Part shown: in pieces, positions 7,564 through 31,097 of the stretch
Numbering within the stretch: the first letter of the stretch is position 1
Layout of the letters: every line of letters starts with the position of its first letter
NCBI GenBank assembly: GCA_902791165.1
Contig: CADAVB010000045.1
Span: 1 to 36,318 of the forward strand
DNA length: 36,318 nt
Direction of reading: 5' to 3'
DNA from: an uncultured Bacteroidia bacterium
GTDB lineage: Bacteria; Bacteroidota; Bacteroidia; Bacteroidales; F082
Program-made: the position numbers and the translations under genes
Notes under the pieces: model-generated
Database searches by the model: none
What the model was told of the DNA's origin: nothing
The model's input: the letters and a program-made list of their open reading frames with translations, nothing else

Positions 7564-9081
7564 TTATTGAAGGACACCTGCTGCTTTGCGCAAATTCACA
7601 TCCGCCATGATGCAATCAATTTTGGCATCAATATATTCGGAATGTGCCTGAAGCCATGCGGTTTGAGCCAAATTGAGCACCGACGATTCCACAACACCCT
7701 CGCGGAAACCTGCATTGGCCATACGAAGGTTCTCGTCAGCGTCGTTGAGTTTCTCTTGCGACTGTTTCAGACGGGAGTCGGCCTCGTTGAGGCGTGTCTC
7801 ACACTGGCGCACCTGAAGCATGATCATCTCCTTGGTGTCTTCATAGTTATATTGCTGTATCTTGGCTTCAGCTTTGGCCATACGGGTCTTGTTGTAGCCT
7901 TCACCCCAATGGAAAACCGGAATTTTGGCCATCACTCCGAAGCTCCATAATCCAGTGAACTCGTTTTGGAATCCGTTGAAGCACGAAGGATTACTGAGGG
8001 TATAGTTGCCGAAAGCCCCGATGGTGGGCAGGTAATCGGCTCGGGTGACCCACACCTTTTTGGCGTAGATGTCGTTGGCCAGGCTGAGGCATCTCAGTTC
8101 AGGACGGTTGGTCTCTATTTCGCTCTCCGAATAACAAGGCTTCTGATGGGTGAGCAGCACATCGTCGAGTTTCTCGTCGGCCAAGACGATATCCGAATCA
8201 AGCGGCAGACCGCAGATCTGGCATAGCAACATCTTTGAGAGCGCCAGTCCATTCTGCGCCTTCAGCAAGGCTGTCTCTGCTTCGTTCAGCTTGACCTTCA
8301 CTGCCAATTGTTCGGAGTTAGTGGACACGCCTTCCGCGACCATCTTCTCAACATCCGCGTTAAGGGTGCGTAGCGATTCGGCATAGCTCTCGGCCAGTTT
8401 CAGCTTGTTGGCGATACTGACAATCTGCCAATAGGCTTGGTCAGTAGTCACCACCACTTCCTGCTGCTGCAAATCCAACTTCGACTCGGCCAACCCCTTC
8501 AAGTCTTTGGTAATCTGGTTGTAAGCCACAATCTTGCCTCCTGCGAAAATCGGTTGCTGCACCGTAACGATGCCCGAGTAAATATTCTTCGTGTCGACAT
8601 TGAAGGCGTCCGTAACTTGCTCGCCGATTTGGTTCAAGGCGTCTTCAACGTTAAGGCTCATGAAATCGGCAACCAGCTTGCTGACGATAGGGTCATTCTG
8701 AAGCATCGCCAACGAAATCACAGCCGAAGGGTCGCTCATATAAATGGCCAGCAACTCTTGTCGGTAAGCATCAATCTGAGCCTGGGTCATAGTGCCGATG
8801 TTGTTGAGTGCGGCAATGTTCTCGTCACTCAGCAGTTGGACGCTCTTGTTGTTGTGCGTGTAAGTGGCGGTTGCCGACACCTTGGGAAGGTAATTGGCGT
8901 ATGAGGAGTACATCTCATAACGGGCCTTGTTCACCTCCTCCTCCGACACTTTCAGTTTCTTGTTGTTTTTCAGTGCCAACTGGTGGCATTCATCCAACGT
9001 CAGCACTCTTTGTGCACCAGCCGTCAGCGTCATGCAGCATAACGCCAGCAGCAACATCATGTTTTTCAATCTTTTAGTCAT
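7564..9081 (-). CDS. TolC-family outer membrane efflux protein
   Basis: A 505-residue protein with a signal peptide ending TAGAQ (cleavage about residue 23) and two repeated outer membrane efflux protein domains. The first starts with LTLDECHQLALKNNKKLKVSEEEVNKA, the second contains RPELRCLSLANDIYAKK and a long helix NEADSRLKQSQEKLNDADENL. The trimer forms the outer-membrane channel and periplasmic tunnel. It is the first gene of the efflux operon, which is unusual only in that no ATPase follows. The length is typical of the family (about 450-500). A divergent AraC-type regulator lies 156 bases upstream. No lipobox is seen, unlike RND-associated OprM-like factors. Confidence 0.93.
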   Translation of the reverse strand: MTKRLKNMMLLLALCCMTLTAGAQRVLTLDECHQLALKNNKKLKVSEEEVNKARYEMYSSYANYLPKVSATATYTHNNKSVQLLSDENIAALNNIGTMTQAQIDAYRQELLAIYMSDPSAVISLAMLQNDPIVSKLVADFMSLNVEDALNQIGEQVTDAFNVDTKNIYSGIVTVQQPIFAGGKIVAYNQITKDLKGLAESKLDLQQQEVVVTTDQAYWQIVSIANKLKLAESYAESLRTLNADVEKMVAEGVSTNSEQLAVKVKLNEAETALLKAQNGLALSKMLLCQICGLPLDSDIVLADEKLDDVLLTHQKPCYSESEIETNRPELRCLSLANDIYAKKVWVTRADYLPTIGAFGNYTLSNPSCFNGFQNEFTGLWSFGVMAKIPVFHWGEGYNKTRMAKAEAKIQQYNYEDTKEMIMLQVRQCETRLNEADSRLKQSQEKLNDADENLRMANAGFREGVVESSVLNLAQTAWLQAHSEYIDAKIDCIMADVNLRKAAGVLQ

Positions 9082-22054: not shown

Positions 22055-22085
22055 CAAAAGTACACATTATTTTCAATTATTGCAA
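22055..22085 (-). promoter_or_regulatory. Promoter of the RNA ligase gene
   Basis: TTG (22083-22085) is followed after 20 bases by TACTTTTG (22055-22062), an exact -7 box. It overlaps the last codons and stop of the upstream dnaE-type gene, and the ligase start lies 20 bases downstream after a GGAG. Confidence 0.7.
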
Positions 22086-24995
22086 TTCTTGGTATCCCAA
22101 TCGCGCCATTTTCTCAATTTCCAACGACGGCTGCCCAAACTCTTCCGTCACTTTGCCCAAAAGCAAATAAACGCCATCGCCTTGGAATGGCCAAGCCTTT
22201 AAGGTTTGCGGGAAATGTACCGTGTCAAAAGCCTCACCCGTGGCATCCACAAAGGTGGCGAGAGCCATCGTGTCGCCTTTGCAGGTTCGCACATATTTGA
22301 TGGTCACCAATTTACCCAACATTCGATAGCGACTGCCCACAAAATGCAGCATTTGAGAGGCCATCAGTTCGCCACGAAACTTGGTTTTCAGCAGGTCAAA
22401 CCAAGTCAGGGAGACGGGGAAGCCATAAAGTTCAATCTCGTCGAAAGCGTTTTGCAAGACGTTGGTCGTGAAATCGGGGAACTCAAAATGCTGGTTTTCA
22501 AGTTGGAAAAGCGTTTCGGGTTGTTCCTTTTTGCCGTCGCTTTTGTGGAGATGCGCCTGCCACAACAGTTCGGCTTTGGGCTTTTTCGTGAAACTGAACG
22601 CGCCGCCGCGAATAAGCAAAACGAGTTGCTCCAACGAAAACGGCACCCTCGAAACGAAGTCGTCCAAATCGGCGAATGGCCCGTGAGCCTTGCGCTCGGC
22701 GATGAAACGCTCAATGAATTGTTGTTCAATGCCTTGCAGATGAACAAAACCCATAAAAATCGTCCGACCGTTCAAAGTGGTCAAATACTCGCTGCGATTG
22801 ACGCAAGGCAGATGGATTTTCGCGCCCATACGCCGCGCCTCGTTGAAGTAAAACCAAGTCTGGTAAAATCCGCCGAAATTGTTGATCACAGCCACCTGAA
22901 ACTCAAGCGGATAGTGGCTTTTCAGGTAGAGGCTTTGGTAACTTTCAACGGCGTATGAAGCAGAATGTGCCTTCGAGAAGGAATATCCCGAAAACGACTC
23001 AATTTGCCGCCAAAGTTCGCTCACCAAGGCATCAGGATAGCCTTTGGCCTTGCAATTGCCGAAAAATCTGTTTTTAACTTCCTCAAATTCAGTCTTGTCG
23101 CGCATCTTGTGGCCCATCATTCGACGTAGCACATCGGCTTCGGCCAAATCCAAACCCGCAAAATAATGCCCGACTTTCAAAACATCCTCTTGGTAAATCA
23201 TCACGCCGTATGTCTCAGCCAAAAGTTCCTTCAAAACGGGATGCTTATAATCCACAGTATCAGGATGATGGAAGCGATTGATGTATTCGCGCATCATCCC
23301 CGACTTGGCCACGCCCGGACGAATGATGGAACTGGCCGCGACCAAGGTTTTGTAGTCGCTGCAACGCAACTTGCGCAACAGACCGCGCATCGCCGGACTT
23401 TCGATGTAAAAACAGCCGCAAGTCTCGGCCTTGAGCAGTTGGCGGCGAATCAGTTCGTCTTGTTTCAGCGCGTTAATCTGGTGAATGTCAATGCGCGAAC
23501 CGCGACTTTGCTCCACCATTTCCACTGCGTCACGGATATGGGCAATGCCCCGCTGGCTCAAAATGTCGATTTTCTCAAAGCCCAATTTCTCGGCAGAATA
23601 CATATCGTATTGCGTGGTCGGGAAGCCTTTGGGCGGCAGGTCGAGGGCGGCAAAATTGGTAATCGGCTCCTCCGTAATCAGCACGCCGCCCGCGTGGATG
23701 GAACGTTGGCGTGGGAAATCCTCTAAGCGCTCCGAAATGGCCAAAATCTGCCGCCCGATTTCGCTCTGTCGGGCGAAAGCCTCCGGATTGCGTTCCATCT
23801 GGTCAATCTCGCCCTTGGGCAGGCCGAACACCTTGCCCAACTCGCGACAAAGCGAATTGCTTTGGAAAGTGACCGTCGCGCCGAGCAAAGCCACGTGTTC
23901 CCGACCGTATTTCTCAAAGATGTGTTCGATGACCTTGTCGCGGTCGCGCCACGAGAAATCGAGGTCGAAGTCGGGCGGACTGCTCCGCTTGGGGTTGAGG
24001 AAACGCTCGAAGTACAAGTCCAACTCTATCGGGTCCACATCGGTGATTTTCAGGCAATAAGCCACCACGCTATTGGCTCCACTGCCTCGCCCGACGTGGT
24101 AAAATCCCTGCGACATTGCGAAGCGCACAATGTCCCAAGCGATGAGAAAATAGGCGCAAAATCCCATCCGCTCAATGATGTCCAACTCCTTCTCTATGCG
24201 GCGGTAGGCGGTTTTGTCGTGCAGGCCGTAGCGGTACGCCATCCCGTCGAAAGCCAGTTTGCGCAGCAGTTCGCGGTCGTCATAGACATTGCCCGTGTAG
24301 GTGCGCTTGTTTTTCACGCTGTTGTCCAAGTTGATTTCACATTCGTCCAAGATACACTCCGCATTTTCAATGAGTTGCGGATAGAGCGCAAAAGTGGTTT
24401 TCAGCCTTTCGGCGGGCAAGAGAATTTCGTCGTGAGCGGCACAAGCGGATGGTTCGAGGCGCGAAATCAGCACATTTTCGTCAATGGCGCGGAGGCTTTG
24501 ATGCAGTTGGAAATCGTCGGCCTCGGCGAAGGTGACAGGCTGCATCGCGACCAACTTCCCAAAGGATTCGCAGTTGTACAATTTGGTCAGTTGGGAGAAG
24601 CGCACACCGAGAAATTCGTTCTCTTTCAGTAAGTTTGGTTTCCTTTTTCCGAAGGGATAAATCACGAAAACCTGTTCCCAATCGGGCGCGGTTTCGGGAA
24701 AAGGTTGTTTTGTGAGGTTGTGTTGCGTCAGGAAACGGTTCAGTTCGGCGAAGCCCGCGTTGTTTTTGGCCAAGGCCACATACAGCAGTTCGTTGCCGTT
24801 GCGCACCTCCACGCCCACAACGGGCCGCACGCCCTTCCGCCGACATTCCACCACGAAATCGGCCACGCCCATTGTCGTGTTGATGTCGGTCAAAGGCAAG
24901 ACGGTATAGCCCATCGCGGCGGCCTTTCCGACCAAGTCCGCAATCGGCAACGTGCCGTAGCACAGGCTGTTATATGAGTAAACCGCAATCAACAC
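22077..24995 (-). CDS. dnaE2: Error-prone-type DNA polymerase III alpha subunit (DnaE2-like)
   Basis: A 972-residue C-family polymerase. PHP domain about 1-200, palm with GRGSGANSVVAY (302-313) and the catalytic Asps PDFDLDF (341-347), finger and a C-terminal OB domain (about 885-930). It lacks the tau-binding tail and the length (about 1,250) of the replicative DnaE, and the first PHP motif has YSYNS instead of the usual His-x-His, so the PHP is probably inactive. This is the profile of the second, mutagenic DnaE that works with a Y-family partner after DNA damage. A DinB gene and an S24 regulator 4-6 kb away fit that. The start is GTG at 24993-24995; no ATG is available near it. Confidence 0.85.
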   Translation of the reverse strand: MLIAVYSYNSLCYGTLPIADLVGKAAAMGYTVLPLTDINTTMGVADFVVECRRKGVRPVVGVEVRNGNELLYVALAKNNAGFAELNRFLTQHNLTKQPFPETAPDWEQVFVIYPFGKRKPNLLKENEFLGVRFSQLTKLYNCESFGKLVAMQPVTFAEADDFQLHQSLRAIDENVLISRLEPSACAAHDEILLPAERLKTTFALYPQLIENAECILDECEINLDNSVKNKRTYTGNVYDDRELLRKLAFDGMAYRYGLHDKTAYRRIEKELDIIERMGFCAYFLIAWDIVRFAMSQGFYHVGRGSGANSVVAYCLKITDVDPIELDLYFERFLNPKRSSPPDFDLDFSWRDRDKVIEHIFEKYGREHVALLGATVTFQSNSLCRELGKVFGLPKGEIDQMERNPEAFARQSEIGRQILAISERLEDFPRQRSIHAGGVLITEEPITNFAALDLPPKGFPTTQYDMYSAEKLGFEKIDILSQRGIAHIRDAVEMVEQSRGSRIDIHQINALKQDELIRRQLLKAETCGCFYIESPAMRGLLRKLRCSDYKTLVAASSIIRPGVAKSGMMREYINRFHHPDTVDYKHPVLKELLAETYGVMIYQEDVLKVGHYFAGLDLAEADVLRRMMGHKMRDKTEFEEVKNRFFGNCKAKGYPDALVSELWRQIESFSGYSFSKAHSASYAVESYQSLYLKSHYPLEFQVAVINNFGGFYQTWFYFNEARRMGAKIHLPCVNRSEYLTTLNGRTIFMGFVHLQGIEQQFIERFIAERKAHGPFADLDDFVSRVPFSLEQLVLLIRGGAFSFTKKPKAELLWQAHLHKSDGKKEQPETLFQLENQHFEFPDFTTNVLQNAFDEIELYGFPVSLTWFDLLKTKFRGELMASQMLHFVGSRYRMLGKLVTIKYVRTCKGDTMALATFVDATGEAFDTVHFPQTLKAWPFQGDGVYLLLGKVTEEFGQPSLEIEKMARLGYQELQ

Positions 24996-24997
24996 AA

Positions 24998-25058
24998 TAC
25001 TTTTGATTGGTTTTTCGTCAAAATTTTCGCCGTAAATTTAATCAAAGTTTTTGAGATG
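24998..25058 (+). repeat. Promoter-leader element, copy A (next to dnaE2)
   Basis: A 61-base segment that starts with the exact -7 box TACTTTTG (24998-25005) and ends with ATG (25056-25058). It aligns without gaps to 30106-30166 (copy C). Its last 39 bases are identical to copy B at 26922-26960. The core TTTCGCCGTAAATTTAATCA is shared by all three. The promoter points away from dnaE2; after its ATG an 8-codon frame (MNIDSGAK) stops. It begins 2 bases before the dnaE2 start codon on the other strand. Confidence 0.85.
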
Positions 25059-25096
25059 AATATCGATTCGGGTGCAAAATAAACCTTTTGTGACAT

Positions 25097-25233
25097 TAAG
25101 GGTTCTTTTGTGACATCTTTGGTGACATTTCAGGTATAGCCACCGAAGCACATTTTCCGATAATAAACTGAATTTCAATTAGTTCTTTGGTGACATCTTT
25201 AGTGACATCTTTGGTGACAATCAATAGGGAAAA
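25097..25233 (-). pseudogene. Relic tail of an AlbA_2-type protein (VTKD repeats)
   Basis: Read on the minus strand, this open stretch of 45 codons gives VTKDVTKDVTKELIEIQ followed by degenerate MSPKMSQKNP. Tails of VTK-D/E repeats followed by a winged helix are typical of AlbA_2/ATPase-like proteins, and the intact neighbour has an equivalent IKDF repeat. The stretch has no start and no following winged helix. I read it as the leftover end of a second or older copy of such a gene. The DNA contains GTGACATCTTT-like units five times. Chance low-complexity sequence is the alternative. Confidence 0.5.
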
Positions 25234-25243
25234 TTAGGCAAAA

Positions 25244-26773
25244 TCATTGCATAACTATCTCCCAGTGTCCTTCCTTACGGCCATCTTCACGGATGAGAAT
25301 GCCCAATGTTTGCAACACTTTCAAATCTTTCAACACTGTACGTTGCGACACCTTCGTCTTTTGTGAAATCTTTTGTGAAGTCAAAGTGTTATCATCGGCA
25401 ATCATCAACAGTATTTTCCCTTGTCTTTCAGACAATTGCGACGAATTTTCTTTTATGAAGTCTTTTATGAAGTCTTTTATGAAATCCTTGTTCAAAACGA
25501 CCCGCTCACTGATGAATTCCGGGTGGCACGGAATATCAATCAAAAAGTAAGTCCGTTCCTCATCCGTTTCAACAGTTGCTTGGGGAGAACCATTGGCTTG
25601 TAGTTCGTCTTGTATGGTTGGAATGCCCGTGGCTCGGCCTTCGGTAAGGTCAAGTTCCTTCAGAAATTCGCCCAAGCGACGGTTGCGGTAGCGGCGTGAG
25701 CGCAGCGACTTGCCCTTACGCACGGCTTCCATCGGAATAGTGTGGTCTGGCCCAGAGAAACTTAAAATGGAAATTCTATCTGGCTCAATCGTAATCTCCA
25801 CAGGCTCCCTGATGGTCCAGTCGCGGTGATAGAGGCTGTTCACCACCGCTTCCTCCAAGGCTTGGAAGGGATAGTTGAAGAACTTGTCGGAATGTTCGTC
25901 GTCTTTGGGCTTCAGAATCTGCTTCTTGACGACATTGGTGCGCAGGTAACTCAAAGTCTTCTCTATCATCATCGGCACACTTCCTTTAATGGGTTCAACC
26001 TCAATCAGGTTGTTCGGGTTCTTCTCACGTCCTTCGGGGAACAGCACAATGTCCACCTGCGCTTGCTTGAAGAAGCGGTCGGGACGTTCACAGAACATCA
26101 TCGCCGCCACATTCTTGATGCGCCAGCCTTCAGGCACAGGCTCCAACAAGTCCATCTGCTCCAGCACCGACTCCATATTGTCCGTTAACGGCATTTCTGC
26201 CAAGCTGCTCTTTACTTTCACCAAATAGTCGTGCAAAAGCAAAGGCGAGATGTCGTTCAGCGTAATCTGGTCGTTGCCTCGGTCGTCGAAGGGCGTGCGG
26301 TTGGCCAAGTCCAACAACTCACGTTCGTATTCAGCTTTTGGCACGATGCTGCTACTATTATAGCGGATATAGTAGTTGTAGGTCTTTTGCTTGGCTGTAA
26401 CGAAGTCTGGCACCTTGTAAGGCCGACGCTCGCCCGCCGAAACCTTGATGACAAGGATGGTCTTGCCGTCGGCTTCCTCAATATAGAGGCGCGGCTGGTA
26501 GTAAGGGCGCATCAGGTTGTTGTAGCCCACCATTTCCTTCTCGATAGGTTCAATTTTGTTGGTGTCGATGCCCACCACCGGGCGCAAAGCACGACCATTT
26601 TCTTCCTTCACGCCAATTACGATGTAGCCTCCGCCCGTCTCGTCAAAGTCGTTGGCGAAGGCACAGATAGTGCGATAAATGGCATCGGGATTCCAACCCG
26701 TCTTGTATTCTATCCGTTCGCCTTCCACGGCGCGACCGTTGAGAAGTTCATCTATGTTGATGGGTAATCTCAT
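25244..26773 (-). CDS. AlbA_2 / ATPase-like / winged-helix regulator-type protein
   Basis: A 509-residue protein with an N-terminal AlbA_2 (Schlafen-type) domain (about 10-130: GERIEYKTGWNPDAIYRTICAF as start, GGGYIVIGVKEENG), a central HATPase_c_4-like segment (EAVVNSLYHRDW, GRATGIPTIQDEL) and a C-terminal winged helix after three IKDF repeats (ISQKTKVSQRTVLKDLKVL). The family is widespread, variable and often found in defence or regulatory islands; no specific function is established. It lies between two 39-base direct repeats and is followed by a relic tail of another family member. A canonical -7 box lies 19 bases before its ATG. Its position between dnaE2 and dinB suggests insertion into an older repair cassette. 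Confidence 0.85.
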   Translation of the reverse strand: MRLPINIDELLNGRAVEGERIEYKTGWNPDAIYRTICAFANDFDETGGGYIVIGVKEENGRALRPVVGIDTNKIEPIEKEMVGYNNLMRPYYQPRLYIEEADGKTILVIKVSAGERRPYKVPDFVTAKQKTYNYYIRYNSSSIVPKAEYERELLDLANRTPFDDRGNDQITLNDISPLLLHDYLVKVKSSLAEMPLTDNMESVLEQMDLLEPVPEGWRIKNVAAMMFCERPDRFFKQAQVDIVLFPEGREKNPNNLIEVEPIKGSVPMMIEKTLSYLRTNVVKKQILKPKDDEHSDKFFNYPFQALEEAVVNSLYHRDWTIREPVEITIEPDRISILSFSGPDHTIPMEAVRKGKSLRSRRYRNRRLGEFLKELDLTEGRATGIPTIQDELQANGSPQATVETDEERTYFLIDIPCHPEFISERVVLNKDFIKDFIKDFIKENSSQLSERQGKILLMIADDNTLTSQKISQKTKVSQRTVLKDLKVLQTLGILIREDGRKEGHWEIVMQ

Positions 26774-26792
26774 TGCTTGAGTTTTTATGCTG

Positions 26793-26800
26793 CAAAGTTA
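26793..26800 (-). promoter_or_regulatory. -7 box of the AlbA_2 gene
   Basis: TAACTTTG is an exact TAnnTTTG match on the minus strand 19 bases before the start codon. No TTG is found at -33. Confidence 0.5.
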
Positions 26801-26921
26801 CTACTTTTTCCCAATTGGCTTATTGATTGCTTGACAAAATGGCACAGAGAATCCTCCAGTGTTGGAATAGCGGAGAAACGTAATGGTTTAAAGTTTTCGC
26901 CCCAATTTGTGGTACACAATG

Positions 26922-26960
26922 AAAATTTTCGCCGTAAATTTAATCAAAGTTTTTGAGATG
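26922..26960. repeat. Core of the promoter-leader element, copy B
   Basis: Thirty-nine bases identical to 25020-25058. The -7 box part of copy A is absent; a degenerate copy of the first 19 bases lies 32 bases upstream (26890-26908). A plus-strand frame of 20 codons starts at 26919 (MKIFAVNLIKVFE and seven more residues). The 300 bases between the AlbA_2 gene and the next gene hold only this, the degenerate copy and the AlbA_2 promoter. Confidence 0.9.
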
Positions 26961-27074
26961 GGAACCAGTTTGGGTGCATAATTCATGGCAATTACTTGAT
27001 TTTCTCTAATGTCAGAAAAGAAAAACAAGTAAAAATGATTGCGTAGCAGTTGACAGTCAGGTGATGAATCATCT

Positions 27075-27677
27075 TCAATAATCGAAATCAACCGTAAAAG
27101 GCTTATGGTTTTCCGCTTGAACTGCATACATCACAAGCCTCACAGTTTTGTCCGAAGGATTACCTTTGAACAATTGGCTCAAACCAATGCGAGCGACTTC
27201 CCTATCGTATGGTTGATAAAATACCAGGTCATCTTCAACTCGTTTAATATGTACTAAAGCTTGATGTCTCGAAGGAAATCCTAAAAAGACGGAACAAATT
27301 GGATAGGTTTTCCCGTTGACAACAAATCTGTACAATACCCAGGCATTGGCGGCACCTATCTTAAACATTACAGCATCTGCATGGTTTTCACCATCCGCCC
27401 ACACACAAACAGCCGCCTCATCCCCTTTTTTCATTTTATGCGGCGAAATCCGAATATTAATATCAAGTTCATTGAGATTCTGTTCAACAACGAAATGATT
27501 GGGGAAAAACACTGTGTCATCCTCCACCACAAAACCGCTCGTCAAAGATTGATGATGTTGGAAATCAAAGGTTGGTGTCTTTGAAGACGAAGCACATGAA
27601 TAAACCATCATTGCCATACCTAACAATGACAAAAAAAACAACACCTTACGGCACTTTAACATTTCTCGTTGATTCAT
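27075..27677 (-). CDS. Unknown lipoprotein
   Basis: A 200-residue protein with a lipoprotein signal: a hydrophobic stretch VLFFLSLLGMAMMVYSC with lipobox VYSC, followed by Ala-Ser-Ser-Ser. The mature part is beta-rich by appearance with few Cys; stretches such as GDEAAVCVWADGEN, MFKIGAANAWVLYRFVVNG and DREVARIGLSQLF match nothing I can name. I start it at the ATG at 27675-27677; a second ATG five codons later is equally possible and the longer 222-codon frame adds an unlikely pre-signal segment. It lies between the patatin gene and the AlbA_2 gene on the same strand. No function is proposed. Confidence 0.65.
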   Translation of the reverse strand: MNQREMLKCRKVLFFLSLLGMAMMVYSCASSSKTPTFDFQHHQSLTSGFVVEDDTVFFPNHFVVEQNLNELDINIRISPHKMKKGDEAAVCVWADGENHADAVMFKIGAANAWVLYRFVVNGKTYPICSVFLGFPSRHQALVHIKRVEDDLVFYQPYDREVARIGLSQLFKGNPSDKTVRLVMYAVQAENHKPFTVDFDY

Positions 27678-27821
27678 ACTATTGAAATTGTTTTCGAGCA
27701 CAATAATACACATTATTCCAATATGCTTGCATTTTGAGAGCATTTTTCTTTCTTCATTTCCAATTCTTTAACCGTGCGTTCTACATTGCCTTTCACAAAA
27801 GCATCCCCACAAAAGCCGGCA

Positions 27822-27858
27822 CCAAAAGGACATCGCCGTCTTTCCGACGGTCTTTTGG
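27822..27858. other. Nested hairpin downstream of the patatin gene
   Basis: Outer stem CCAAAAG / CTTTTGG (7 bp) encloses an inner stem CCGTC / GACGG (5 bp). It lies 11 bases after the patatin stop and has no T-run. It may end or stabilise the patatin message. Confidence 0.5.
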
Positions 27859-27869
27859 GTAAATCAGTA

Positions 27870-28691
27870 TCAGGGCTGCCGTCTTTTCTTCGCGAAAACG
27901 ATTGTTTCCTTTGGCAGAACACGGCTGTAGCCGTTTTCCTCAAGGGCTTTCAACGCACTTTCATAGCCCCTGAAAAACAGTTCTTCGAGCCGCGACATGT
28001 CGTAGGCCAAACACCCGTAAGTGTCCAACTCTATGAACAAATCCGCCAGTTCCGTGTCGATGGCTGTATTCGACACCATCATCATCATGAACGAGCGGTA
28101 GGCCACCGAGACGAGCGTGTCCTTGTATTTTTTTTCTTCCTCAAGATGGTTGAGGTTGAGCGCAATGACGGTCTCGCACTGTTCCCTGATGGCCGACACG
28201 GGCAGGTTTTGGAACGCGCCTCCATCAACATAGTGCAGGCCGTTGATGTTCATGGGACGGAAAATGACCGGGATGGAGCACGAAGCGACCACTCTCGGGG
28301 CAATCTCGCCTTTGTCAAACACCTTGGGTGCGCCGTGTTCCAAATCGGAAGCCACAACGAAAGTCGGGATGGGTAGCTCCTCCAGAAGCGTGTAAGGCAG
28401 GCTTTTTCGGAGCAATTTCACGAGAGGCCGCGAGTCGAACAAGCCCCCTTTGGGCACGGCAGGGGTAACGATGTCCTTGAAGAAATTCAGTCCCTGAAAA
28501 AGCTCTATCATCTGTTGGGGCGTGAAACCGGAAGAATAAAGCGTCGCAACCAAGGCTCCGGCACTGGTTCCTGAGACCACGTCGGGCTTGATGCCATATT
28601 CGTGGAAGGCCTGCAAGGCTCCGCAATGGGCTGCCGCCCTCGCACCGCCGCCACTGAAAGCGACACCCAATGGATATTTCTTTGTTTCCAT
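27870..28691 (-). CDS. Patatin-like phospholipase
   Basis: A 273-residue cytosolic-looking patatin-domain protein. The oxyanion motif GGGARAAAHCGAL (15-27), the nucleophile motif GTSAG (Ser at about residue 43) and the dyad Asp in YVDGGAFQNLPV are all present, so a Ser-Asp acyl hydrolase is expected, cleaving acyl chains from phospholipids or related lipids. It lacks the outer-membrane barrel of PlpD/RssA-like secreted forms and has no signal peptide; it resembles the RssA/YjjU class. Its ATG follows a small ORF by 8 bases and both seem driven by the promoter at 28832. Chromosome neighbours are repair genes, with no obvious link. Some patatins act in phage defence, but no cyclase or sensor partner is seen. 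Confidence 0.9.
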   Translation of the reverse strand: METKKYPLGVAFSGGGARAAAHCGALQAFHEYGIKPDVVSGTSAGALVATLYSSGFTPQQMIELFQGLNFFKDIVTPAVPKGGLFDSRPLVKLLRKSLPYTLLEELPIPTFVVASDLEHGAPKVFDKGEIAPRVVASCSIPVIFRPMNINGLHYVDGGAFQNLPVSAIREQCETVIALNLNHLEEEKKYKDTLVSVAYRSFMMMMVSNTAIDTELADLFIELDTYGCLAYDMSRLEELFFRGYESALKALEENGYSRVLPKETIVFAKKRRQP

Positions 28692-28699
28692 ATTGAAAA

Positions 28700-28813
28700 T
28701 CAGAGCAGTTGGAAGGTATGGTTTCTCGTTTCCGCCATGTTGATAGCCTCTATGATGATGCCGTTCTCGTCAAAACACTCGAAATGGAAGGCTTTCGTTC
28801 CTTTTTGCAACAT
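28700..28813 (-). CDS. Small protein (37 residues) upstream of patatin
   Basis: A short frame MLQKGTKAFHFECFDENG ending NHTFQLL lies 8 bases before the patatin start. An exact -7 box (TATCTTTG) lies 18 bases before its ATG, so the first gene on that transcript would be this one. It has no signal peptide and matches no family I recognise. It may be a small protein or a translated leader. The placement relative to the promoter is the main support. Confidence 0.45.
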   Translation of the reverse strand: MLQKGTKAFHFECFDENGIIIEAINMAETRNHTFQLL

Positions 28814-28831
28814 AGCTTTCAAGTTTGCGTG

Positions 28832-28839
28832 CAAAGATA
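28832..28839 (-). promoter_or_regulatory. -7 box of the small ORF - patatin unit
   Basis: TATCTTTG on the minus strand is an exact match. No TTG is found at -33. Confidence 0.5.
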
Positions 28840-28894
28840 AGGAGAAATATCGGGCTATGCACGAATCCCGGAAAAAATAACCCAACAGTTTCCA

Positions 28895-30031
28895 TCACCC
28901 CGCCGCCCGATGAATCATTTCCTCCCCGAACCGCATTTTGATTCTGTCCATCGCGGAATAGAGGTTCGTCAGTTCGGCGTTGTCGTCGAAGAGGGCGAGT
29001 TGCGGCGCACCGCTCACCAATTCGCTGAAGCGCACACCCACGAGCCGAATCATCATCCGGCGGTTGTAGAGGCGGTCGAAGATGCCGTTCACCGTTTCGC
29101 GCAAAACGTGGTCGAAGGCGGTGTAAGGGATGCGCTGCTGCATGTCGTGCGTGTCGAAGTTCGAGTAGCGGATTTTCACCGTTACGCAGCCGGTCAGTTT
29201 GTGTTGCGAGCGCAGGTCGAAGCCGAGGCTCTCCACCATGCGCGCCAGGCATTGCCGGATGGCAGCCACATCAATCGTGTCTTGCTCAAACGTCCTTTCC
29301 TTGCTGATGGACTTCCGCTCTTGGTAAGGGCACACGGGCGTGCTGTCTTGCCCGTTGGCTTTCTTCCAGATGTCGAGGCCGTGTTTGCCCATCGCGCGTT
29401 CCATCGCAAGGGGCGGCAGTCGGCGCAGGGTGCCGATTTTCTCCACGCCCATCGAGCGGAGCAAATGGTAGGTCTTTTCGCCCACCATCGGGATTTTCTG
29501 CACCGAGAGCGGGTCGAGGAACGTATTAATATAAGGTGTGGACACTTCGAGTTCGCCGTTGGGCTTGGCCTGTCCCGTCGCGATTTTCGCAACCGTCTTG
29601 TTTTCCGACAAGCCAAACGAAATCGGCAGGCCCGTTTCGTGGATGATTTTCTGGCGCAGTTCGTGCGACCACAGTTGGCAGTTGTGGAAGCGGTCCATAC
29701 CCGTCAGGTCGAGGTAATGCTCATCGATGGACATTTTCTCATAGACGGGTGCGTTGTCGGCGATGATGTCGGTCACGAGGCGGGAATAGCGGCTGTAGAG
29801 TTCCATATCGCCACGGATGAAAATGGCCTGCCCACACAGTTGCCGCGCCATCCGCATCGGCATGGCCGAATGTACGCCGAAACGCCGTGCCTCGTAACTG
29901 CAAGTGGAGACCACGCCACGATCCGACATACCGCCCACGATGACGGGTTTGCCCTCCAAACAAGGGTTCACCAACCGCTCCACCGACACGAAAAACGTGT
30001 CCAAATCCAAGTGCAAAATCGTCCTTTCCAT
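28895..30031 (-). CDS. dinB: Y-family DNA polymerase IV (DinB)
   Basis: A 378-residue translesion polymerase. Catalytic residues are in LHLDLDTFFVSVE (D9 and following) and SIDEHYLDL (D103, E104); the usual SIDEAYLD has His for Ala here. Palm, fingers and thumb are followed by a little-finger domain (about 240-340; ERKSISKERTF, RLVGVRFSEL). QLALF (344-348) is a beta-clamp binding motif near the C-terminus, with a short tail after it. It is divergent from the S24 regulator across 256 bases that contain copy C of the shared element and an 18-base palindrome. It probably works with the DnaE2-like polymerase. Damage-induced expression is inferred from the neighbour. Confidence 0.94.
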   Translation of the reverse strand: MERTILHLDLDTFFVSVERLVNPCLEGKPVIVGGMSDRGVVSTCSYEARRFGVHSAMPMRMARQLCGQAIFIRGDMELYSRYSRLVTDIIADNAPVYEKMSIDEHYLDLTGMDRFHNCQLWSHELRQKIIHETGLPISFGLSENKTVAKIATGQAKPNGELEVSTPYINTFLDPLSVQKIPMVGEKTYHLLRSMGVEKIGTLRRLPPLAMERAMGKHGLDIWKKANGQDSTPVCPYQERKSISKERTFEQDTIDVAAIRQCLARMVESLGFDLRSQHKLTGCVTVKIRYSNFDTHDMQQRIPYTAFDHVLRETVNGIFDRLYNRRMMIRLVGVRFSELVSGAPQLALFDDNAELTNLYSAMDRIKMRFGEEMIHRAAG

Positions 30032-30084
30032 ACTTCGATAAACTCAATAACCTTTATTTTTTCTTCTTTTTTTGCCCAAAATGC

Positions 30085-30166
30085 TTGCATGTTCCAAAAA
30101 AGTTGTACTTTTGACGAGTTTTTAATCAGAAATTTCGCCGTAAATTTAATCAATTATTTTAATATG
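30085..30166 (+). promoter_or_regulatory. Promoter and leader element, copy C, of the S24 regulator gene
   Basis: TTG (30085-30087) is followed after 18 bases by TACTTTTG (30106-30113). The 61 bases from there to ATG (30164-30166) align without gaps to copy A beside dnaE2. The shared 21-base core is at 30133-30153. The leader to the regulator start at 30288 is about 170 bases. Confidence 0.75.
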
Positions 30167-30259
30167 GTTCAAAAAAATAGAAAAATTTCTCCAAATGCCT
30201 CGAATTCGAGGCAAATGAGATTTGTAGAGAGATTCCCGAAAGGAAATCTCAACAATTAA
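30164..30259 (+). CDS. Possible 31-codon leader ORF upstream of the S24 regulator
   Basis: The ATG that ends element C opens a 31-codon frame (MVQKNRKISPN ... GNLNN) that stops 28 bases before the regulator start, in another frame. It contains the 18-base palindrome. Basic residues are common; no family is recognised. It could be a translated leader or just non-coding leader sequence. Confidence 0.3.
   Translation: MVQKNRKISPNASNSRQMRFVERFPKGNLNN
30196..30213. promoter_or_regulatory. Perfect 18-base palindrome, candidate operator
   Basis: TGCCTCGAATTCGAGGCA reads the same on both strands. It lies in the dinB-S24 regulator spacer, 90 bases downstream of the -7 box of the regulator. It is a good candidate binding site for the dimeric HTH-S24 protein. 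A second imperfect inverted repeat (GAGATT / AATCTC) follows at 30229-30250. Confidence 0.55.
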
Positions 30260-30287
30260 ACAGTTAAACAACCAACACTTCAACAAT

Positions 30288-31097
30288 ATGTACTTCAACA
30301 GCAACATAAAATTCCTCCGCAAGCACCGCCACCGCACACAAGACGACATTGCTTTTGCACTGAATATGAAGCGCTCCACGTTGAGCGGCTATGAAAACGG
30401 CGTGTCGGAGCCGAACCTTGAGGCCTTGGTCGCCTTCTCGAAATATTTCGGTATTGCCATCGATACTTTGGTGAAAGTCGATTTGAGCGGCATCAGCCCG
30501 AGCCAACTTTCGCAATTGGAGCGCGGCTACGACGTTCACCTGAAAGGCAGCAATTTGCGCGTATTAGCCACCACGGTCAATAACGACAACAACGAGAACA
30601 TCGAACTCGTGAGCGAAAAAGCCAAGGCGGGCTATGCCACGGGCTTCGCCGACCCCGAATATATCAAGGTGCTGCCGACGTTCACGATGCCCTTCCTCTC
30701 GCGCGACCGCAAATACCGCACCTTCCAAATCAGCGGCGACTCGATGCTGCCCATCCCCGATGGTTCCTTCGTCACGGGCGAGTACGTCCTCGACTGGACC
30801 TACATCCGCAGCGGCCAGCCGTACATCGTGCTCACGCAAGACGACGGCATCGTCTTCAAGATCGTGGACAACAAAATCGAGCACGAGAGCAAACTCACGC
30901 TCAGTTCGCTCAACCCTTTGTATCAGCCTTACGATTTGGCCGCCTCCGATATTAAAGAGGTGTGGAAATTTGTGCATTACATCAGCGCGGAAATGCCCGA
31001 GCAGCGCGAAAACCGCTTCCGCGAGGAACAACTTCTGCAAACCGTCCAAGAACTGAAACGGCAGGTGGAGGAGATACAGCTGAAATTGAATATTTAA
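30288..31097 (+). CDS. XRE-type regulator with S24 (LexA-like) autoproteolytic domain
   Basis: A 269-residue protein. The helix-turn-helix is at about residues 5-62 (QDDIAFALNMKRSTLSGYENG). A linker leads to an Ala-Gly pair in KAKAGYATGF (114-115), the type of bond cut in LexA and UmuD. The S24 domain has GDSMLP (S152) and VFKIVDN (K191), the Ser-Lys dyad. A C-terminal helix (about 235-269) could dimerise. LexA is missing from most Bacteroidetes, so such a protein next to dinB is a natural candidate for the damage sensor: self-cleavage aided by RecA would lift repression of dinB and perhaps dnaE2. That is inference. It is divergent from dinB. Confidence 0.9.
   Translation: MYFNSNIKFLRKHRHRTQDDIAFALNMKRSTLSGYENGVSEPNLEALVAFSKYFGIAIDTLVKVDLSGISPSQLSQLERGYDVHLKGSNLRVLATTVNNDNNENIELVSEKAKAGYATGFADPEYIKVLPTFTMPFLSRDRKYRTFQISGDSMLPIPDGSFVTGEYVLDWTYIRSGQPYIVLTQDDGIVFKIVDNKIEHESKLTLSSLNPLYQPYDLAASDIKEVWKFVHYISAEMPEQRENRFREEQLLQTVQELKRQVEEIQLKLNI

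Follow-up and report, generated by a model that had tools for sequence, protein, structure and literature searches.

A probable SOS-type tandem operator of an HTH-S24 regulator beside dnaE2 and dinB in a Bacteroidales genome

Introduction

SOS control in Bacteroidetes was defined in a 2021 study (Sanchez-Osuna et al, 2021; PMC8565304). In that study, CTAA-N5-TTAG is the site of a non-canonical LexA of Bacteroidetes as proven by electrophoretic mobility shift assay, a recA site belongs to the published non-canonical LexA regulons in several species, and both ortholog groups of this regulator are reported to be missing from Bacteroidales, many of which live in animal guts. The same source describes an SOS regulator of Elizabethkingia anophelis that is induced by mitomycin C together with the polymerase gene opposed to it. 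Here we analysed a stretch of 36,318 nucleotides from an uncultured member of Bacteroidales (assembly GCA_902791165.1, contig CADAVB010000045.1; hereafter the window), in which an element of up to 61 bp is repeated beside dnaE2, beside dinB and before an inserted gene for an AlbA_2-domain protein. An earlier note on this sequence had offered three readings of the repeat: a shared operator, a duplicated promoter of S24-type regulator genes or the footprint of rearrangement. From sequence comparison, we consider it very probable that the repeat is an SOS-type tandem operator of the neighbouring helix-turn-helix (HTH)-S24 protein, a relative of non-canonical LexA. Within the literature searched, this operator would be new in both motif and lineage.

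Results

Two conserved dyads in a repeat confined to one locus

In an ungapped alignment, copies A (24998-25058) and C (30106-30166) are identical at 49/61 positions, with a longest exact run of 21 bp, and copy B (26922-26960) reproduces 25020-25058 of copy A exactly over 39 bp, as the earlier note had it. By comparison, the longest exact repeat was 11-16 bp in 200 approximate dinucleotide shuffles of 24600-30600. The note had also placed the copies just before dnaE2, AlbA_2 and dinB on the other strand; the minus-strand starts lie 29, 153 and 101 bases from the core for copies A, B and C, respectively. In the assembly (2.7 Mb, 98 contigs), a 20-bp core has three exact matches, all inside the window, and its reversed control none; allowing 3 mismatches adds one site (C20:40604). 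The exact core is therefore confined to this locus, and the scatter at many random sites that would have spoken against a regulatory role was not seen. With at most 2 mismatches, a match was present in 43/99 genomes of the genus (own included), with one match for the reversed control.

The element consists of two dyads, O1 and O2, whose centres are 24 bp apart (Table 1). Across 49 dinB-side copies, O1 and O2 hold 1.92 and 1.75 bits per column, against 0.62-1.14 in the other stretches except the S24 promoter (1.48). Across 25 dnaE2-side copies the means are 1.82 for O1 and 1.89 for O2, with 0.41-1.04 in the flanks and 1.38 in the linker; O1 of these copies mostly reads TGATTA-GTTTT followed by TAATCA or TCGTCA in relatives. 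The core itself is probably O2 with a drifted left half, because distant relatives show a dyad of the type TGATTA-N5-TAATCA at this place. In 80 named loci around S24 homologs, all core matches with at most 4 mismatches lie in the S24 orientation. With the window included, 51 of the listed copies are found no more than 200 bp upstream of dinB and 26 precede dnaE2, while 17 belong to neither class; two of the 51 (L070, L083) are O1 picked up as a second match, and the 17 include the dinB-side copy of L069, a dnaE2-type copy at the contig end in L083 and the S24-side copy of L105, all left unclassed by our script.

The ends of the element are less uniform than the earlier note implied, and the block common to the A-type and C-type consensus sequences is about 44 bp, from TTTTGA through the final TAATCA. 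The opening TACTTTTG is indeed present in both copies A and C, but it is conserved only at copy C, the dnaE2-side copies of relatives being variable here. The copies do close with ATG, but not as a shared start codon: in relatives with the core 11 bp before S24 this ATG is the start of S24 itself, and in copies A and B it opens frames of just 8 and 7 codons. A leader peptide starting at the closing ATG was rejected, as there is no conservation between copies.

The consensus of Bacteroidetes promoters is TAnnTTTG, with TTTG at -33 (PMC7366714). Among 79 tandem sites in the 80 loci, TAnnTTTGA overlaps O1 in 62, 57 of which also have a TTG 17-20 bp ahead, and O1 of copy C places an imperfect dyad with an N5 spacer on the -7 box of the regulator's own predicted promoter. 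The distance from dinB-side copies to S24 ranges from 10 to 978 bp. The reading as a duplicated promoter of S24 genes is not supported: copy A keeps TACTTTTG without a TTG at the right distance, relatives vary, and the source genome yielded one S24 homolog. Separately, the leader between copy C and S24 contains a perfect 18-bp palindrome, TGCCTCGAATTCGAGGCA (30196-30213), parts of which can be recognised in several relatives that have a similar insert.

dnaE2 has its own copy when separated from dinB

Judging by the sequences compared, dnaE2 seems to carry its own operator copy in every case in which intervening genes separate it from the operon with dinB. We considered 43 loci, window included, with S24 at least 80% identical, a complete dnaE2 5' end and dinB, searching for a core with at most 4 mismatches within 130 bp before dnaE2 and calling loci separated if the dinB-dnaE2 gap exceeded 500 bp. 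A core was present in 25/25 separated and 0/18 near loci (Fisher p 1.6e-12, a test that ignores kinship). At most 3 mismatches gave 23/25 versus 0/18 (p 3e-10), and a gap limit of 200 or 300 bp gave 25/26 versus 0/17 (p 4e-11), with L106 (418-bp gap) becoming a separated locus without a core. Among 14 independent separation contrasts (FastTree, 62 rows), the core agrees with the rule in 11 and opposes it in none. A dinB-side copy (at most 5 mismatches) is found in 43/43 loci, with or without inserted genes.

The start of dnaE2 itself differs between the two forms. An inner clade, defined by S24 identity of at least 91%, comprises 32 loci, of which 31 were compared (L099 was dropped for a missing anchor). 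Here dnaE2 starts with LN[VT]HSYNS in 11/11 near loci and with I[AD]V[HY]SYNS in 20/20 separated loci. Over the 15 bp preceding the anchor, the difference is 0.374 between the groups and 0.15-0.16 within them, whereas the next 150 bp show no near/separated split (0.150 vs 0.131-0.138). Outside the inner clade this rule is not clean: near loci L107 and L111 read LAV and IDV, and separated loci L100 and L103 read LTV and L143 LAV. Two loci retain remnants. First, in L069 a near-type start of dnaE2 (LLNVHSYNS; 8728-8817), some 30 codons long, directly follows dinB, and the complete dnaE2 of this locus lies 4 kb away, behind an operator and with a separated-type start. The remaining 24 separated loci showed no such fossil, bar short intergenic matches in L079 and L088. 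Second, L273 (genome G057, G057:C237) has three operator copies, the second behind a dnaE2 start of 27 codons and the third behind a shorter remnant.

Together, the split in starts, the L069 fossil and the L273 remnants point to replacement of the dinB-dnaE2 operon form by DNA carrying inserted genes, an operator and a dnaE2 start. They suggest that this happened repeatedly, through recombination within the 5' end of dnaE2, which is conserved; its direction, and transfer, we infer. Horizontal spread of the operator is accordingly a claim that we hold less firmly than the operator itself. It is conceivable, though we rate it at somewhat under even chances, that the operator and the first dnaE2 codons form a swappable regulatory cap, which would enter with foreign genes, keep the displaced polymerase under SOS control, allow newcomers (AlbA_2, perhaps others) to be recruited to the damage regulon, and move between species by recombination at the dnaE2 5' end.

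The motif in distant relatives and other genomes

We examined a distant set of 29 loci, 28 with S24 58-69% identical plus L110 just under 80%. Perfect TGATTA-N5-TAATCA precedes S24 in 15/29, and paired right half-sites 23-24 bp apart occur in 22/29 if small changes in the halves are allowed. In L131 both dyads are perfect, with centres 23 bp apart, after a promoter-like TAnnTTTG. From this comparison, we take the tandem TGATTA-N5-TAATCA form of distant kin to be the older one. We counted 25 perfect palindromes, versus 6 for the reversed control, across 15 genomes (own, eight chosen for an S24 homolog and six in which an earlier scan had revealed paired half-sites). Of the 18 palindromes that were fetched, 13 map to promoters of S24, dinB or dnaE2, including one located between S24 and a SRAP (SOS response associated peptidase) gene; in L197 and L210 the dyad precedes the earliest possible start of dnaE2 by 13-19 bp. 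Among the seven unfetched, G103:C162:51272 is 58 bp before S24 by coordinates. The earlier scan, order-wide for TAATCA-N17/18-TAATCA, found one place in the source genome; it is too loose alone (257/295 genomes have a hit, and hits to the reversed control are frequent as well) and served to pick the six genomes.

The S24 protein as a probable relative of non-canonical LexA

The S24 protein combines an N-terminal CI-type HTH domain (PF01381, E 7.7e-18) with a C-terminal S24 peptidase domain (PF00717, E 6.9e-07), both above cut-off. In 41 aligned proteins, S152 and K191 are invariant (41/41) and A114 and G115 are each kept in 37/41. By sequence motif, we take A114-G115 to be the cleavage site and S152/K191 the Ser-Lys dyad. 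The winged-HTH domain of canonical LexA (PF01726, accession per PMC8565304) is absent from the Pfam matches of the protein, NCBIfam gave no family above cut-off, and matches in a PDB sequence search were limited to the HTH regions of three chains. Homologs were found at E <1e-60 in 8/24 sampled genomes of the order outside the genus, and at E <=1e-20 in 59/296 phylum genomes. Relatives with the locus are metagenome-assembled genomes (MAGs) labelled Bacteroidales, Bacteroidia or Bacteroidetes, one being a Candidatus Limimorpha (Bacteroidales in NCBI).

A subset of 40 phylum homologs (36-44% identical) was fetched with upstream DNA. Exact CTAA-N5-TTAG lies within 260 bp upstream of 14/40, and the scrambled-order control AATC-N5-GATT of 0/40; eight homologs have two such sites, spaced 22, 23, 23, 23, 33, 66, 202 and 202 bp. 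Kinship to regulators bearing this site was assessed on these fetched phylum homologs.

A model of regulation and the evidence against it

If the repeat is the operator of the S24 protein, a dimer bound to O1 of copy C would occlude the S24 promoter at its -7 box, and the O1 and O2 pair there would also shut the predicted divergent dinB promoter, so that copy C, by position, would serve both dinB and S24. The pair at copy A would control dnaE2, as its position and the dnaE2 rule both suggest. A single O2 at copy B would probably control the AlbA_2 gene, a weaker assignment; this arrangement with AlbA_2 recurs in L068. Upon DNA damage, RecA filaments would trigger self-cleavage of the S24 protein between Ala114 and Gly115, relieving repression and releasing the error-prone polymerases.

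Several observations weigh against this model. First, the earlier note proposed looking for sites upstream of S24, dinB, dnaE2 or recA; S24 and the error-prone polymerase genes dinB and dnaE2 have them in the window and in relatives, but none was found at recA. Paired half-sites were found upstream of 0/15 recA genes, with no dyad above background, and there is no recA match in the source assembly; a lone O2-like site at recA could be missed, because O2 of the window scores 9/12, the commonest background value. Second, the exact published operators CTAA-N5-TTAG and GGA-N5-TCC are not those of the window, where the sites are of TGATTA-N5-TAATCA type; this bars membership of the published subgroups, not of the family, because PMC8565304 itself reports diverged motifs in members. 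Third, the dyads of the window are imperfect. The source genome contains no perfect palindrome, the left half of O2, CGCCGT, does not mirror its right half and yet is strongly conserved in the window lineage, and copy B lacks O1, this position reading TTTGTG-GTACA-CAATGA. Fourth, motif and genes do not always coincide: 5/18 fetched palindromes lie elsewhere, and TTGATTA-N5-TAATCAA with at most 2 mismatches has 26 places in the source genome (10 for the control), none in the window. Of six such places fetched as loci, three are in open frames <110 aa. Fifth, three of the 14 contrasts (L112, L123, L135) show no core difference by the preset test. Seen post hoc and uncounted, L112 has O1/O2-like dyads ~260 bp upstream and L135 has TGATCG-N5-TAATCA before a small open reading frame (ORF) in the gap; nothing operator-like was seen in L123 on the same inspection. 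Finally, the middle copies in L064, L065, L066 and L108 have no convincing gene reading away on the minus strand, and some copies may be relics, because the B-type copy in these loci adjoins an antitoxin-like HTH gene reading towards it.

The regulon may be small, by analogy with lineages that PMC8565304 places near loss of the regulator. YGMYKW-N5-TAATCA occurs at 17 places in the source genome (reversed control 3), four of them the window sites. The other 13 are in stop-to-stop frames of at least 273 aa, a crude measure that also puts copies A and C of the window in frames of 503 and 472.

Alternative explanations

The core could instead be mainly a minus-strand promoter (TTG ... AAnnTTTG) copied before each gene, with no repressor reading it. 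Most A-type and C-type copies do read TTGATTA...AAWWTTTGATTA on the minus strand, near the -33/-7 layout of Bacteroidetes, though by our count their spacing falls ~2 bp below that of the S24 promoter. We find this explanation improbable: the spacer of a promoter need not be so strictly kept, the dyads recur in distant kin without a TTG ahead of the minus-strand half-site (L131), and binding to dyad-N5-dyad sites is documented for homologs of the S24 regulator (PMC8565304).

Slightly less credible again is the view that the copies play no part in regulation and are footprints left by the recombination or insertion of mobile cassettes. The rearrangement proposed by the earlier note is real in part, in that copies stand at the borders of inserted genes, array content varies among relatives, one relative keeps a fossil dnaE2 start, and the truncated dnaE2 5' ends of L273 carry the element. 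A mere footprint should not, however, be present on the dinB side of all 43 loci irrespective of inserted genes, nor does it sit well with shared conservation that fades at the O1/O2 edges or with the closeness of the dyad to the dnaE2 start in L197 and L210. That the element works at the transcript level, as a structured RNA leader, is very unlikely, even with copy C within the predicted S24 leader: the element is read from opposite strands for dnaE2, AlbA_2 and dinB and for S24, its distance to S24 varies as given above, and an RNA element was rejected when 24600-30600 gave no Rfam family at gathering score.

Genes of the locus and gene insertion

Positions of the genes, dyads and predicted promoter are given in Table 1.

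Table 1 Features of the dnaE2-dinB-S24 locus in the window
Feature	Position	Strand	Remarks
dnaE2-like DNA polymerase III alpha	22077..24995	-	Pfam; separated-type start IAVYSYNS
Copy A O1	25004..25020	+	TGATTG-GTTTT-TCGTCA dyad upstream of dnaE2
Copy A O2	25028..25044	+	CGCCGT-AAATT-TAATCA, within the core of the earlier note
SLFN_AlbA_2 / HATPase_c_4 / HTH protein	25244..26773	-	Pfam; inserted gene behind copy B
Copy B O2	26930..26946	+	CGCCGT-AAATT-TAATCA; O2 only, 153 bp before AlbA_2 start
222-aa ORF	27075..27743	-	Inserted; no Pfam or PADLOC family found
Patatin-like phospholipase gene	27870..28691	-	Inserted; Pfam PF01734
dinB, Y-family DNA polymerase IV	28895..30031	-	Pfam IMS, IMS_C
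Predicted S24 promoter	30085..30113	+	TTG-N18-TACTTTTG; -7 box overlapped by O1
Copy C O1	30112..30128	+	TGACGA-GTTTT-TAATCA; overlaps S24 -7 box
Copy C O2	30136..30152	+	CGCCGT-AAATT-TAATCA; in dinB/S24 spacer
HTH_3 + Peptidase_S24 protein, 269 aa	30288..31097	+	Pfam; proposed LexA-like repressor

The gap between dinB and dnaE2 (25244-28691 in the window; L064-L143) is a hot spot of gene insertion. Its cargo includes an AbiL-like pair, matches to the PADLOC candidate families PDC-S01 and PDC-S02, an HTH antitoxin-like gene, AAA-ATPase/PD-(D/E)XK and PAD_porph genes, and others. Four loci have a KilA-N gene between the core and S24, and in L079 (5450-5746) an operator copy stands 20 bp before a minus-strand DUF3791 gene. 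L102 contains dnaE2, an operator and S24, but no match to dinB lies among these three, which would fit a loss of that gene. L089 and L093 (both Tb.RUG.400) are two contigs of one MAG, each with a dnaE2-dinB-operator-S24 locus, so that this MAG has either two copies or is a mixed bin.

Discussion

The reading of the repeat as a shared operator is well supported by sequence: its tandem dyads are conserved, its presumed repressor belongs to a homologous family with dyad-N5-dyad sites, and dnaE2 has a copy only if cut off from dinB. The earlier statement that no standard feature type explains the repeat cannot be kept, because the repeat fits an SOS/LexA-type operator. A group within Bacteroidales would thus have such a regulator with an operator of its own, linked to mutagenic polymerases, which makes damage-induced mutagenesis directly testable there. 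The dnaE2 rule is in addition a clean natural experiment on the retention of gene regulation after an operon has been broken up.

Three described systems, all taken from PMC8565304, resemble the locus. The SOS-controlled imuA-imuB-dnaE2 mutagenesis cassette likewise links a dnaE2-type polymerase III alpha to a Y-family polymerase gene; the partner in the window is dinB-like, unlike that of the cassette. The site of the Elizabethkingia anophelis SOS regulator, TTAC-AAATT-GTAA, is likewise a diverged N5 palindrome before a regulator and an opposed error-prone polymerase gene, although its half-sites are other than those of the window and that family has several paralogs. Closest is the non-canonical LexA of Bacteroidetes (Sanchez-Osuna et al, 2021). 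The window differs from that system in its TGATTA-N5-TAATCA motif, in its Bacteroidales lineage, in the decayed left half of O2 and in that no recA site was found, and it shares the CI-type HTH_3 and S24 architecture with Ala-Gly and Ser-Lys residues, the dyad-N5-dyad sites, more than one of which stands in several promoters, and the targets, judged here by site position: the regulator itself, dinB and DNA polymerase III alpha.

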